A stretch of 23,885 bases of DNA from a virus, in the IMG/VR virus record IMGVR_UViG_3300030382_001211, positions 1 to 23,885 of that record; one strand, 5' to 3'. Below are positions 860 through 16,242 of this stretch, piece after piece; position 1 is the stretch's first letter; each line of letters begins with the position of its first letter. The position numbers and the translations under genes are program-made. The notes below the pieces were generated by a model. That model saw only the letters and a list, made by a program, of their open reading frames with translations. It was not told the DNA's origin and searched no databases.

Positions 860-3800
860 TTAGAATCCATGTCTTCTTAAAGGTTGTATGTTATAACCTG
901 ATCCTGCTTTACTACGTACTTCTTTTGCTTGAGATACACTTATTGCCTTCCGTAAGTCAGGATTGTTTAAGAGTACTTGCTGCCAAGCTATATCCTTATT
1001 TCTAGTAAAAGCTCTAGCTACTTGACGATAAAATCTTTGATGCGTTAATTTATAACCTTGGCTTTCTAAAAGATTTCTATCTTTATAACTCTGAAGTTCT
1101 TTTTGCCAAGTTGGGTTTTTCATGATAGCTAGCAACTCTTTCCTTAGTGGACCCATAGACATATATTTCTGTAGTTGTGACCTTTGTTTAGAGTTTAAAA
1201 CTACACCTTTATATGAACCCATGACTTCAGGTAAGTTAAAATTAATATCAACTAAGGATTGTTTAACAAAATCACCGTCAATAGGTACAACAGGCATGAA
1301 ACTGAATGCGTTCTTGAATTTTAGTAAAGGATTAGTAGCACCAAAATTTAATGGCTTACCAGATCTATCTTTACTTAAAATATCATACTTAGGTTGAAGA
1401 GTTGATTTTACAAGAGCATCTCTTTTCCACATTTGCTCTAAGAAAGTATTTGCTTCCTTCTCGTTACCATCAATTATTTTACCTAATTGACCCATTAAGC
1501 CTTGATAAGGTAGATGAGCACGGGAATATTTAGAGAATACTCTTTGAAGAGCACCTTCTGATCTCTGTGGATTAAAGATATCAGTTAAATCTTTAACACC
1601 AGATAGCATAGATTTATCAATCAGTACAGCTGATGCCATATAAGCTACCTTTTCTGTCCATTCATCAAGATAAGCTTCGCCTAAAGTATCACCATTCTGT
1701 ACCATATTAGCTGATACACTAAATATAGTATTCCAGGGTTCTAATTCTTTATAAGATACATATGCATTCCCAATTTTAAATGAGTATGGTTGTATACCTG
1801 CCATTTTCCAAAGATCTCGGCCCTCTTTATCCCTAGGATAATCACCTGTCATGTTACCTGACATGGTTGCAATAAAAGCCATTCCTGTAATAGAACCACC
1901 AACAGCCATTCTACCTTGCATCATAGCTAGTTCACCAGCTACTTCATGAGGTTGTAAGCCATAATCTTTGATATGGATGCCTTGACTTAGATCTTTATAC
2001 TTTTTATGCATAAAAGCTAAAGGGCTACTCTGAAATGTAAGGTCTAAAGCGTTTACACCAGTCCTAACAAAGGGGAAAAACGCCCTTGCAATAGGCCATT
2101 CTTGTATCGCTTCAAAGGCTTTTGGCCATCCTTCTAGAGCTTTTGTCATGGTAGCTTCATCACCCGCTAAGGCAACAGCTTTATCATGTACTACCCATTT
2201 ACCTTCTGCATTTTTCTTAAAAATTTTCTCTCTAAAATTTTGCTCAGTTTTTCTAGCTATAGCATTAACATCGTTTAAATCTACACCTGAATCTACAGCT
2301 TCTCTAGCAGCTTTCATTCGCATGTTAACTCTACCAATCATGGTTCGAGTAAACGCGTCTCCAGCTCCCATAGCATTAGCACTATACTTCATCCAAGGAC
2401 TTGTATTCATATTTACAAGTTTATCTAAAGTACCATATGCTCGTTTCTGAGTTTCAGTACCATATCTTGTGAAGTGTTCTCTTAATGCTTGCCATTCAGC
2501 TATATCTCCAGCAACATCATACCTACCTTGATAGGACATACTTTTACGATGTAAGCCTAAATCCCAGTTATGCATAGCCATGTCAATAGACTCTCTATAG
2601 GCTGAGCCGATAGCGTCTAATCCAGCTGCAGCAACTGCCATCTCTTTCGGATTCCGAGTTATAGCAGCTCCTATATATTGCATCATAGGACGGGATGCCC
2701 CAATCATTACAGTACTTGTAACTGCATCTATTGGAGTTTTTAAAGAGCTTAGAATTGAATTATAGAAGACACCTTGTATTTCTTGGCGCATTTTACCACG
2801 GATCTTACCGCCGCCTATATCACCACCAAAGAGTTTAGCCTGTAACCAGTCATGAACCATCTCTAGAGTTCTAACATCACCTTTAGATAAGGCATGTATC
2901 TCCATAAGATCTTTCATCTCTTCGACTCTACCAGCTTTATTCAGCTTATGTAAAGCTTCAAAATACTCATCTTGTTCCTGAGTAATCTCTTCTAGTCTCT
3001 TACCTATTTGTCTTGATCTTGCAGGGGATAGTTGCAACCCTTTCATATTAGCAAGCTCAGAGCCTGTCATATATCCTATCTTTTTATGCTCTGTTAAAGC
3101 GACTTTCATCGCATCGAAAACTTGTTCGACTTGACGTGTGACAGGTATATCATCAGCAGCATGTATAGCTCCTGTAGCAATTCCTTCAGCTTGTTTGGCT
3201 AGTGTATTAATAACGAGTTGTAAAGCAGCTTTCTCCGAAGCTGTACCAGTAACAACTTCATTACCAGCATGTGTCCATACAATATTATCATCACTATTCT
3301 TAAACCAATTCCTTAGTTCTTGTGCAATATCACCGCCTCTTTCTAAGGCTGAATGCATTTCACTAGCTTGTCGGATAATAAGTTCTTGAACTTCTTTATA
3401 GTTTAATTGGTTATCTAAAGATTTAAAAGCTTCTCTAGATATATCTTCAGCGACTTCAACTATATATTCACGTAGATCACGGCTACCTCTGCTCATCTGT
3501 TTTAAAGCAGTTTCAGTGAATAGGGGTGAATAACTACGTCCTTTACCAGAACCAGTTTTCATGTCCTCTACACCTTCCTTAAGGTTTCGTGTGACTGGAT
3601 TACCTTCTTCAGGACGGAACATAGCTCGTTCTGAATCATCAAATCGTCTTGGATTTACCCAAGGATCTGGTTGTCTACCAGCATCTGTTTCTAACTGACT
3701 TTTACTTGCCTTAGCATCGTAATCCCAAGCATCACCAGCAGCATTACCACGAGAATCTGCTAGTTCATCTAGCTCTAGTTTCTGAGGTCTGTCTGGTGAA

Positions 3801-12878: not shown

Positions 12879-14003
12879 TTAGAATGCGGTTGGAGCTGTC
12901 GAAGTTGTATGAAGCTCAATACATGAGGCAGGGTTAAGATAGTCGGCGCCCATTGCTAAACGTCCGAGTATAATATCGCCTTGGTAAATCACTGATACAT
13001 CGCCACTCGTTACTTGAACCTGTGGTCCGATGGCTTCAACGACACCTGCGGCTTCCTTCTGGAAGATAAGTCCACAAGATGTTGCCCATGTGTTGGCAAG
13101 GCCGTAGTTATTGTTAACACCACCTTGTGCAACTGAAGCATCCTCCATTGTAGCACCGACGAATGAGCCAGCATTATCAATGGTTGTTGCAGTACCATAA
13201 TTTCCTTGGAAAGGAATGTTCATGGACTGAAGGATATCGATGCCTGCAATAGACAGGATTCCTTTACCTTTCTGCAATCCTTCACCTTGTACATCCCTGT
13301 TGATCAACGCATTTGAAGATACGTTCTCAATAAGAGTGTAGTATTGGCGAGGAGCAAGTACGGCGACACGGCCTTCCTGACTTACTCCCTTCTCATCTAG
13401 CTGTGTTGCGGCTTCAAAGAAAGCTGCTACAAGCTTAGCTGAATCAAGAGCATCAGCGGCTGCACCATTTCCGGTACCTACCTGGATTGTAGATCCACCT
13501 GGCTCAACCTTACCGGAAGCCGAGATGGGATGTGCCTTACGGGCACCACGTGAGATAGCTCTAAAGATGAGTCTATCATATTTTTCTGCGAGAGCAAAAC
13601 CAATCTTCTTAGAGATTTCACCACGTAATTCGTAGTGAGCTAGGGTCTCGTCAAGGTCGTAAACGAATGCAGAACTGATCAAGAGGTCATCCATTTGGAT
13701 GGTCTTCTCAGCTACTGGCAGCGCGTTCTCTGTACCCAAGATAGGTGTACCTGGGGTATGGTAGTCGGCGCTCATGCGTCCCGTGTAGATGAACTGTAAT
13801 GACTTACCGTTCTTTAGGGTACGACGAGTAACAAGATTCCTGGCGATTGTGTTATGCTGGAACCCTTTGAACAACTCTCCTGAGAAGAGTTTCAGATAGG
13901 TTCCGTACTTGGCATCATAGTTAGCATCTGAAGTAGTCAGAGCTAACGGAGTTGAGCCAGTACTATTAATTCTACCTAGGGCGGTAGTTAAAGCATTAGC
14001 CAT
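12879..14003 (-). CDS. Major capsid protein (gp10-like, HK97 fold)
   Basis: A 374-residue protein matching the size of cyanopodovirus capsid proteins (T7 gp10A is 345). The segment LFSGELFKGFQHNTIARNLVTRRT near residues 39-62 and GKSLQFIYTGRMSADYHTPG near 66-85 are the usual N-arm and E-loop region of the T7-like HK97 fold. LLISSAFVYDLDETLAHYELRGEISKKIG forms the spine helix region, and VAVLAPRQYY with the later RDVQGEG is typical of the A domain. It assembles the icosahedral head on the scaffold protein encoded upstream. It is preceded by a 117-base untranslated leader that contains a palindromic hairpin and followed by a strong terminator, so it is probably an independent high-level transcript or processing unit. 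No cleavage or decoration domain is visible. Confidence 0.96.
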   Translation of the reverse strand: MANALTTALGRINSTGSTPLALTTSDANYDAKYGTYLKLFSGELFKGFQHNTIARNLVTRRTLKNGKSLQFIYTGRMSADYHTPGTPILGTENALPVAEKTIQMDDLLISSAFVYDLDETLAHYELRGEISKKIGFALAEKYDRLIFRAISRGARKAHPISASGKVEPGGSTIQVGTGNGAAADALDSAKLVAAFFEAATQLDEKGVSQEGRVAVLAPRQYYTLIENVSSNALINRDVQGEGLQKGKGILSIAGIDILQSMNIPFQGNYGTATTIDNAGSFVGATMEDASVAQGGVNNNYGLANTWATSCGLIFQKEAAGVVEAIGPQVQVTSGDVSVIYQGDIILGRLAMGADYLNPASCIELHTTSTAPTAF

Positions 14004-14072
14004 TTATCTTAAATAAAAGTTTTATAATAACGTTCTCAGCTGAAATTTGTTGCGCGTTTTTTGTAGGTCTTT

Positions 14073-14096
14073 CCCTACCGTCTAGACGGCAAAGGG
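14073..14096 (-). repeat. Palindromic hairpin in the capsid gene leader
   Basis: A perfect 12-base palindrome (CCGTCTAGACGG, 14078-14089) is flanked by CCCT and AGGG arms, giving an extended hairpin about 70 bases upstream of the capsid start. There is no T-run, so it is not a standard terminator. It could be an RNA processing site between the tRNA and capsid messages, or a protein-binding operator; the sequence alone does not decide. The rest of 14004-14120 is AT-rich, with a possible weak TATTAT box near 14019-14030 that I do not call as a promoter. Confidence 0.5.
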
Positions 14097-14120
14097 TATC
14101 CTCGTAAGGGCCGATGCCAA

Positions 14121-14608: not shown

Positions 14609-14965
14609 TTAGAATTTATACTTGGCACCAATTTTAGTGCCGTATGCGTTATCCGTATCTTCATCAGTAATGAATGATACTTCTCCATACACATCTAGTT
14701 TTTCTGAGGCAGCTACGGATGCTCCGAGCTTACCTGAGAATTCAGTTGCTCCGTCTACAGCGTCACCTCCAACGAGAGCAGGTCCACCTTGGATGTAGTA
14801 TCCTAAGTCACCTACTTCGCCTTCGTAACCTACGTGTAGATCAGTAGTACGGGAAGTATAATCAGTTCCTGTATAAGATGCGTTAGACTCAACGTTTGTA
14901 TAAACGCCGGCCATTGCAGGAGCAGAAGCGAAAGTTGCCGCTAGAGCAAGTGCAAGTTTTTTCAT
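14609..14965 (-). CDS. Exported outer-membrane beta-barrel-like protein
   Basis: A 118-residue protein with a clear Sec signal peptide: MKK, a hydrophobic core (LALALAATFASAP) and the AMA cleavage site before Gly20. The mature part of about 99 residues has alternating polar/apolar strands with many Gly, Tyr, Thr and Asp (VGYEGEVGDLGYYIQGG, KLDVYGEVSF, GTKIGAKYKF) and ends in Phe, the usual C-terminal residue recognised by the outer-membrane assembly machinery. This suggests a small beta-barrel or beta-sheet protein in the host outer membrane. It is short for a complete eight-stranded barrel, so it may oligomerise or form an incomplete barrel. Its ATG is eight bases after the stop of the 17-residue peptide, so it is probably under the same leader RNA. 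Possible roles, all inference, are superinfection exclusion, envelope modification or permeability. It is unlikely to be a virion protein because of the signal peptide. Confidence 0.75.
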   Translation of the reverse strand: MKKLALALAATFASAPAMAGVYTNVESNASYTGTDYTSRTTDLHVGYEGEVGDLGYYIQGGPALVGGDAVDGATEFSGKLGASVAASEKLDVYGEVSFITDEDTDNAYGTKIGAKYKF

Positions 14966-14973
14966 GTTAAGTT

Positions 14974-15027
14974 TTACTTAGTAGTTTTTGTGTACTCAAC
15001 ACCACGATACTTAAGTTTAACAGTCAT
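14974..15027 (-). CDS. 17-residue DUF4278-like peptide downstream of a candidate riboswitch
   Basis: The frame MTVKLKYRGVEYTKTTK starts at 15027, with GGAG eight bases upstream, a strong ribosome binding site. The core L-x-Y-R-G-V-x-Y is the signature of DUF4278, a short domain frequent in cyanobacteria and cyanophages whose function I do not know. The peptide consists of little more than this core. It lies immediately behind the pseudoknot RNA at 15044-15097, the arrangement described for the Downstream-peptide RNA class, which precedes very short ORFs. It ends eight bases before the exported beta-barrel gene, so its translation may couple to that gene. Confidence 0.75.
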   Translation of the reverse strand: MTVKLKYRGVEYTKTTK

Positions 15028-15043
15028 TGTTAATACTCCAGTA

Positions 15044-15097
15044 CCACATCCCCGTTCCATGATGTGGTTTCATGCGTTCCCCAAAGGGAGTGAACGG
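15044..15097 (-). promoter_or_regulatory. Downstream-peptide-type leader RNA (candidate glutamine riboswitch)
   Basis: On the minus strand the elements come in the order: P1 5' strand CCGTTC (15097-15092); hairpin TCCC-TTT-GGGG (15089-15079); single-stranded ACGCATGAAA; CCACATC (15067-15061); ATG; P1 3' strand GAACGG (15057-15052); and GATGTGG (15050-15044). P1 and the CCACATC/GATGTGG helix interleave, so the RNA is an H-type pseudoknot. The ribosome binding site of the 17-residue peptide begins five bases beyond it. The CGTTCA and GGAACG boxes around a hairpin resemble the glnA/Downstream-peptide RNAs, which bind L-glutamine in cyanobacteria and their phages. The complementarity is seen directly; the family name is from memory of its layout. 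An alternative pairing of CGTTC with GAACG at 15080-15076 could form the second state. Confidence 0.7.
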
Positions 15098-15143
15098 ACG
15101 TAATGTGAGTTGGCTTCTACTGTATCGATCTACGAGCCGCCGT

Positions 15144-15239: not shown

Positions 15240-15391
15240 TATTTTTTCTTGGCTGTGCCAAGGGCTTCAGCTGGAGTCTTACCCCAACGGTCTTTGAACT
15301 GCTGTTCAGATAGTCCTTCTGCTCCCTTACTATCTACAATAAGCTGAGCTTCTTCTTTTATCCTACTGGATTTAACGCCTTGTGTTGTCAT
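15239..15391 (-). CDS. Small hydrophilic protein of unknown function, 50 residues
   Basis: A frame from ATG 15391 to TAA 15239, reading MTTQGVKSSRIKEEAQLIVD at its start and ending in LGTAKKK. It is helical and charged, with a GLSEQQFKDRWGKTPAEAL segment resembling a small helix-turn-helix-like or helical-hairpin unit, but no family is identified. The ATG overlaps the scaffold stop codon by four bases (ATGA), and its own stop overlaps the start of the lysine-rich frame, so the three look translationally coupled. Its place next to the scaffold gene suggests a head-assembly or structural accessory, which is inference only. Confidence 0.6.
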   Translation of the reverse strand: MTTQGVKSSRIKEEAQLIVDSKGAEGLSEQQFKDRWGKTPAEALGTAKKK

Positions 15392-16242
15392 GATACTTGT
15401 AAATTAGATCGTTCTAGTTTGTGCTGTACATCTGCACGGTAAGCAGGGTCAGCATCGTACTGTGGGCTTTCCATATCTCGTACAACCTCAGCCATACTAC
15501 GATACTTGTCACCTCTAGTAGCTGTTCTACCAGTCACTAGATCAGGTGTTCTACCTACAGCATCTTCATACTGTGCGTTCAAAGCTTTCACTGCAAATCT
15601 TACAGCAGCTTTGTTACCAGTATTCATAACCTCATCGAAAGCTTTGACATCATCTTCTCCAAGGTTAGTCTCTGCCCACTTAGTAAGGCTATCATATTGA
15701 TTAGGTCCACCTGCAAGGTCTTGTATCTCTCTCACATCAGAGTCACTTAGCTGTTGGCCTGATGCTGTAAACCCTTGCTGTTGAGCCTGGCCTTGAAGGT
15801 ACGCAGAGACTGTTTCAGCAGGAAACCCTGCGTCAACTAACTGTTGGGTCATCTCATCTGTAAGAGTACCATTATTCTCATTGAAATGAGTAGCCATCTT
15901 CCAAGGATCTATACCTGACTTCTCCATTACATCAGTGATCTGCTCACCGTATACTTCTTCTACAGTATCATAGTCAACAGAACCATCATCTGTGTAAGGA
16001 TTTAAATTATCATCTGGTGTTACATCTTCAGATACCTCGTCGGGGGTACCCTCACCCATCTTCTTTTGAAGTTCTAGGTAAGCCGCCTCCAAATCTTCTG
16101 CGTTTTTATATTTACCAGCAAGCAAGTCCGCCTGCTCGGCTGCCATCTTCTCGCCTTGTGCGAGGTTCTCACCATCTCTTACTTCCGCATCGGCTAGTGC
16201 CTGTGGATCATCAGATGGATCATATGTAATAGTTTCTGCCAT
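15388..16242 (-). CDS. Capsid assembly scaffolding protein (gp9-like)
   Basis: A 284-residue acidic, Gln- and Asp-rich protein between portal and capsid genes, as T7 gene 9 (307 residues). The N-terminal third is highly acidic and probably disordered (ETITYDPSDDPQALADAEVR). The segment KYKNAEDLEAAYLELQKKMG is typical of T7-like scaffolds, and the helical C-terminal half (from about residue 155) should contact capsid protein. In this family the scaffold co-assembles with capsid protein to form the prohead and is then released. The gene begins three bases after the portal stop. The assignment is well supported by order, size and composition. Confidence 0.92.
   Translation of the reverse strand: MAETITYDPSDDPQALADAEVRDGENLAQGEKMAAEQADLLAGKYKNAEDLEAAYLELQKKMGEGTPDEVSEDVTPDDNLNPYTDDGSVDYDTVEEVYGEQITDVMEKSGIDPWKMATHFNENNGTLTDEMTQQLVDAGFPAETVSAYLQGQAQQQGFTASGQQLSDSDVREIQDLAGGPNQYDSLTKWAETNLGEDDVKAFDEVMNTGNKAAVRFAVKALNAQYEDAVGRTPDLVTGRTATRGDKYRSMAEVVRDMESPQYDADPAYRADVQHKLERSNLQVS

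Follow-up and report, generated by a model that had tools for sequence, protein, structure and literature searches.

Cyanophages are well known for the photosynthesis genes that they carry, and nitrogen can limit the production of virions in the open ocean; to our knowledge, the manner in which these phages handle the nitrogen of their hosts is poorly understood. The locus described here, a short leader with interleaved helices that precedes a 17-residue open reading frame (ORF) in a T7-like cyanophage, raises the question of whether such a phage carries a genuine glutamine riboswitch and, if it does, which product that riboswitch controls and by what means.

The window that was analysed (the whole stretch of 23,885 nucleotides from IMG/VR record IMGVR_UViG_3300030382_001211) corresponds to the structural half of the genome in a T7-like cyanophage; on the minus strand, Pfam identifies genes for the head-tail connector, scaffold, capsid, nozzle and DNA polymerase. 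The interval between the scaffold and capsid genes contains two small ORFs, the leader and its 17-residue ORF, a gene for an outer-membrane-type beta-barrel protein (OMP), a 78-residue ORF and a tRNA-Gly; psbA and hli are absent from it.

Identification of the aptamer

A search of the window against all Rfam families using cmscan produced a full-model match to RF01704 at positions 15099-15043 of the minus strand (56.7 bits, E 1.7e-11). Because that score lies well over the gathering cut-off of the family (33 bits), the leader is real and not a chance fold; a search of the record with RF01704 alone returned an E value of 4.1e-15, and the glnA (Glutamine-I) model gave no match in the window at E values of up to 1 in the Rfam scan. 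RF01704 corresponds to the Glutamine-II family, earlier named Downstream-peptide, whose peptide-coding context and marine occurrence have been known since 2010 (PMC2864571). Like other members, the leader displays P1, P2, a pseudoknot and the CGUUCA, CGCA and GGAACGG boxes, and is placed before an ORF within the 17-100 residue range (PMC2864571). The locus is a member of the glutamine-II class, and thus a variant of a known riboswitch class rather than a new one.

The original prediction, made from the letters of the window, had described two interleaved helices and a small hairpin as a pseudoknot leader in the head operon, had assigned that leader to the Downstream-peptide riboswitches (proposing the Infernal scan reported above as a check), and had placed behind it a 17-residue ORF and, eight bases further on, the gene of an exported protein. 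All of these elements are present on the minus strand between the scaffold and capsid genes, with the next ATG at position 14965, and the assignment is borne out by the scan; the spacing between pseudoknot and ribosome binding site (RBS), given there as five bases, is in fact three, from the end of P2 (15043) to the GGAG sequence at 15039-15036. The positions of these features, and of the neighbouring genes, are collected in Table 1.

Table 1. Features of the leader and its surroundings, in window coordinates
Feature	Position	Strand	Basis
Scaffold (capsid assembly) gene, upstream neighbour	15388..16242	-	PF05396, E 4.3e-9
Glutamine-II riboswitch aptamer (RF01704)	15043..15099	-	cmscan
Pseudoknot 5' strand CGTTC	15092..15096	-	sequence; invariant in 34 phage aptamers
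P1 hairpin TCCC/GGGA	15078..15089 (strands 15089-15086, 15081-15078)	-	sequence; 2/3 aligned pairs with two-sided changes
P2 5' strand ACCACATC	15061..15068	-	8/8 pairs with two-sided changes
Pseudoknot 3' strand GAACG	15053..15057	-	sequence; invariant in 34 phage aptamers
P2 3' strand GATGTGGT	15043..15050	-	final GGT common to P2 and RBS hairpin
RBS hairpin, proposed expression platform (linker and peptide codons 3-9)	15006..15045	-	MFE -13.0; z -2.39 (synonymous recoding) and -3.96 (linker shuffles); not in host leaders
Shine-Dalgarno GGAG	15036..15039	-	sequence
17-residue ORF MTVKLKYRGVEYTKTTK, single YRGxxY repeat, DUF4278-like	14974..15027	-	sequence, relatives, profile matches of longer relatives
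Outer-membrane-type beta-barrel protein, signal-like N-terminus	14609..14965	-	PF24653 Phage_OMP, Pfam E 1.1e-42; phrog_417, E 3.2e-40; junction statistics
Major capsid gene, downstream neighbour	12879..14003	-	PF21703, E 6.3e-70

Conservation and distribution

Thirty-four phage aptamers, including that of the window, were aligned using MAFFT, with 500 shuffles serving as a control. Across this set 98.3% of the cells pair, and the compensatory changes among relatives that had been suggested as a further check on the leader are seen in both helices: two-sided changes occur at all eight pairs of P2 (0/500 shuffles as high) and at two of the three aligned pairs of P1 (0/500 shuffles matching the observed values), and sliding the helix partners against each other destroys these covariation values. 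The pseudoknot helix CGUUC/GAACG is found in every sequence and never varies, such that covariation is silent there; the segments CGUUCA, ACGCA and AUGGAACGGG are likewise invariant in all 34 sequences, and the nucleotides of the ligand pocket, at the positions established by a crystal structure (PMC6698751), fall within segments that are invariant among the phage aptamers. Such invariance of pseudoknot and pocket is as expected of a binding site.

Of 20 cyanopodovirus head regions from GenBank, 15 contain a match to RF01704 after the scaffold gene or psbA and ahead of the capsid gene, in phages of ten named genera (Tangaroavirus, Cheungvirus, Pedosvirus, Tiamatvirus, Lingvirus, Pagavirus, Sednavirus, Igirivirus, Tritonvirus and Ashivirus) as well as in phage S-CBP1, and the module is present in the model phage P-SSP7; the family did not exceed its cut-off in the head regions of the remaining five (S-B28, S-SBP1, S-SRP01, DSL-LC07 and S-CBP3). 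The gene order of related isolates is scaffold, hli, psbA, capsid, and the closest upstream marker is psbA, hli or the scaffold gene in 73 of 80 phage loci (five of the remainder being too short), with the capsid gene downstream in 51 of the 53 loci of sufficient length. The module is therefore common, and is located at one site across many genera of T7-like marine cyanophages. The aptamer is also found in 77 of 121 host genomes (the family of a Prochlorococcus reference), at one to seven copies per genome; a pattern scan of a genome collection was swamped by chance matches, and just six picocyanobacterial loci were taken from it.

The site occupied by the aptamer is where cyanophages carry captured host genes, and the element might for that reason be regarded as a relic, captured together with psbA and hli and non-functional in the phage. 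That reading is highly improbable, given that the pocket nucleotides are invariant, that compensatory changes have preserved P2 in ten or more genera of phages, and that a phage-specific hairpin (described below) has evolved behind the aptamer.

Two head regions contain altered forms of the element. In S-SBP1 (locus L360, about 2433-2640) the P1 loop harbors an insertion of approximately 160 nucleotides bearing the annotated ORF gp32, which places the halves of the aptamer far apart; the YRG peptide downstream of this split aptamer is intact. In S-CBP3 (locus L364, about 3120-3240) a degenerate aptamer lacks the CGCA box, and CGTTC, GGAACG and the YRG peptide MSIQVTYTYRGVKYTKTVNR are kept, a divergence that may reflect an altered ligand or decay.

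A second conserved and apparently structured RNA element, of the form TTGGC..GCC-hairpin-GGATACC..GCCGTCTAGACGGTGGGATAGACCACAA, is located at positions 14061-14120 of the minus strand of the window, and other T7-like cyanophages also have it 5' of their capsid genes (loci L122, L126 and L350-L362, and IMG/VR loci). Its 62 distinct copies lie mostly 55-85 nucleotides 5' of the likely capsid ATG, and what precedes them is a tRNA-Gly (as in the window), a hairpin resembling a T-arm, GGGAGGTTCGATTCCTCCC, or one whose loop is CACCTCAGAGTCGGA. This element has no match in Rfam, and is possibly a processing or translation element.

The peptide and its relationship to DUF4278

The association of aptamer and peptide was measured solely on a peptide-blind set of 28 IMG/VR loci, collected by a search for the aptamer boxes and filtered for the P2 helix; loci obtained using a pattern that fixes the peptide are biased, and were left out of the count. 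All 28 of these aptamers, one of which (L002) is really a glutamine-I-type tandem, are followed by an ORF with the motif YRGxx[YF] that starts no more than 70 nucleotides away, as compared to 1.67% of random positions on the same contigs. The encoded peptides range from 13 to 47 residues, with 17 the commonest length; forms from Prochlorococcus phages include MTVKLKYRGV.YTKT and MKVTFVYRGVAYTRVIG, and those from Synechococcus phages carry an extra charged N-terminal stretch. In the records that were inspected the forms of 13-18 residues are unannotated, and some of the longer ones from Synechococcus phages are listed as hypothetical proteins. Peptides that differ in length and flanks have the YRGxxY motif in common, and in the peptide core nonsynonymous differences are less frequent than synonymous differences (pN/pS 0.42, an indicative value, as some loci were fetched by a peptide-based pattern).

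The phage ORF resembles a single repeat from a family of host proteins. Its YRGxxY core and its predicted control by a glutamine riboswitch are features of the DUF4278 proteins of marine picocyanobacteria (PF14105, for example PMM1846) and of the N-terminus of IF17; host versions behind RF01704 mostly contain two repeats in 33 residues or three in 55-57 residues, whereas the phage peptide consists of one repeat in 17 residues. The 55-residue host form matches PF14105 with an E value of 2.2e-10. The 17-residue peptide of the window is too short for a profile scan, and its predicted resemblance to DUF4278 holds through its relatives: for the 34-residue peptide of S-CBP1 the one family detected is PF14105, which it matches at the last repeat with an E value of 2.9e-4 (short of the curated cut-off), and for longer phage relatives with a single repeat DUF4278 is again the sole family matched, at 14-22 bits where the cut-off is 25.3. 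A search of solved structures yielded nothing, and an AlphaFold model of a host three-repeat protein is of low confidence (pLDDT 61, pTM 0.27), its first repeat alone forming a beta-hairpin.

Glutamine-I switches in other viral contigs also lie 5' of YRG proteins, in that case of two repeats and of the uncharacterised families phrog_5049 and phrog_545. Since one protein motif is thus found behind aptamers of two classes, it can be argued that the protein is what glutamine controls. Viral glutamine-I switches form a large set, often in tandem, 5' of YRG proteins with two or three repeats (loci L001-L120, for example L034, L044 and L055), and some of these proteins bear an N-terminal extension such as MNTLNLIRKQINKAAALHDAQI.

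Glutamine aptamers are borne by other phages as well, including the glnA-type glutamine-I switches of marine viruses, which are of another architecture than that of the window, and the glutamine riboswitch described in phage Melnitz, which (unlike the window aptamer) adjoins a tmRNA gene (PMC9004378); T4-like cyanophages have also been mentioned as carriers of glutamine riboswitches (PMC9602691). The open-access literature that was searched contained no description of the module in T7-like phages, of the mini-peptide or of the hairpin, an absence that is not proof of novelty.

A hairpin formed by linker and peptide codons

In the phage leaders a linker sequence, GGUACU or GGUAUAU, pairs with AGUAUC or GUAUAUC from the Lys/Val-Tyr-Arg codons of the peptide, and encloses the Shine-Dalgarno region and the AUG; in the window, this hairpin and P2 have the GGU at 15045-15043 in common. 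The aptamers of the phage and its hosts belong to the same family, and the phage copy differs from host copies in its location in a T7-like head operon and in this hairpin, which is built from the codons of the peptide itself and has no counterpart in host leaders. It is this phage-specific pairing of linker and codons around the Shine-Dalgarno sequence, with three bases common to P2, that is new here.

Among 45 distinct short-peptide leaders the hairpin is more stable than in controls (mean z of -1.7 relative to synonymous recodings and -3.2 relative to linker shuffles); p is 0.05 or less in 84% of them when the linker is shuffled, and reaches 0.05 in only 38% when synonymous recoding alone is used, these values being descriptive as the sequences are related. 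In a matched test, 44 phage leaders gave z values of -1.66 (synonymous recoding) and -2.07 (linker shuffles), as against +0.14 and +0.33 for 35 host leaders, in which the hairpin is no more stable than in the controls. The lower stem is paired in 98.7% of the cells, with one C-G pair exchanged for U-A in 11 sequences, and of the two tyrosine codons of the peptide core the first is TAT in 50/53 and the second TAC in 49/53 (TAT:TAC is 154:79 in the genes of the window, and 40:27 and 26:41 in host repeats). These observations indicate that the RNA hairpin is under selection in phages.

The hairpin appears to be an expression platform for an ON switch. When the aptamer fold is enforced, opening of the RBS is predicted to become cheaper by 0.94 kcal/mol on average (0.32 in shuffles), in a model that contains neither pseudoknot nor ligand energies; the predicted release is reversed by more than 0.5 kcal/mol in 14% of leaders, and in the window the Shine-Dalgarno sequence is paired in both modelled states, with the loss confined to the base of the hairpin. 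The predicted release is modest, and constitutes support for an ON switch rather than proof of one. Such a reading would agree with the published behavior of type 2 switches in Prochlorococcus, which are located 5' of DUF4278 genes and activate on glutamine, raising DUF4278 proteins under plentiful nitrogen (PMC6316151); ligand binding has also been proposed to release a ribosome site that is otherwise occluded (PMC6698751). An attenuation mechanism based on glutamine codons in the leader was ruled out, the peptide containing none.

The downstream gene and the role of the peptide

The participation of peptide codons in the hairpin, together with the position of the OMP gene 0-10 nucleotides after the peptide and lacking its own Shine-Dalgarno sequence in 24/24 distinct junctions, would also fit a reading in which the riboswitch is real and the peptide merely a cis-acting leader, the true target being the next gene (here, that of the OMP), which translation of the peptide would open or be coupled to. 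We consider this unlikely: many phages keep the peptide even though no gene is recognised after it until that of the capsid, 150-460 nucleotides further on; two classes of aptamer precede the same motif; and YRGxxY is conserved despite varying length and flanks, and matches the multi-repeat proteins of the hosts. The missing Shine-Dalgarno sequence of the OMP gene, tried as proof of coupling, was dropped as such because most genes of the window phage are without one (a clear GGAG precedes the peptide, and none precedes the scaffold, portal, capsid, tail and OMP genes). Translational coupling from the peptide to the OMP gene is plausible; the constant partner of the riboswitch is the peptide rather than the barrel protein, because riboswitch and peptide remain in genera that have no OMP gene at this site.

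The preferred reading is that the head operon of this T7-like cyanophage contains a genuine riboswitch of the glutamine-II class, which governs the translation of a minimal single-repeat peptide of DUF4278 type; taken together with the switching and trans role proposed here, we consider it probable. We infer the direction of switching and glutamine binding as follows. In the absence of glutamine, the Lys-Tyr-Arg codons of the peptide would pair with the linker and the last bases of P2, and the RBS would be buried in the resulting hairpin (OFF); with glutamine bound, pseudoknot and P2 would be locked and the shared GGU reclaimed by P2, such that the hairpin would be shortened and the RBS freed (ON). 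Ribosomes finishing the peptide may also start the OMP gene eight bases on.

The peptide itself would most likely act in trans on host nitrogen control, a target that we put forward tentatively and that is a guess because the peptide is made up solely of the DUF4278-like motif, and is too short to accommodate the part of IF17 that binds GS, or an IF7-like part, and because marine picocyanobacteria have no recognised inactivating factors and no PirA. The likeliest function of that kind is competition, in which a one-repeat mimic would compete with the riboswitch-controlled multi-repeat DUF4278 proteins of the host, and could thereby keep nitrogen flowing into capsid synthesis. The riboswitch class and the motif are the same as those of host proteins suspected of GS-type regulation, and the peptide could instead be an agonist, made at high glutamine, that damps nitrogen assimilation in the manner of host DUF4278 and GS inactivating proteins (for example, sparing energy or 2-oxoglutarate late in infection); this is doubtful, as a single repeat offers no space for a part that binds GS and as damping nitrogen uptake during the production of capsids is not obviously useful.

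Implications

If competition with host proteins is the function of the peptide, T7-like marine cyanophages might possess a near-core, glutamine-gated antagonist of host nitrogen control, in which the conserved codons serve as the partner of the OFF state and in which protein motif and RNA switch evolved as one piece; this is a possibility that we raise with reserve. In the hairpin, a coding sequence apparently serves at the same time as the expression platform of a riboswitch, and the peptide represents a minimal form of the DUF4278 motif found in marine picocyanobacteria. A glutamine-type switch located at one site in many genera, P-SSP7 included, would offer a small handle on the way in which cyanophages deal with nitrogen.
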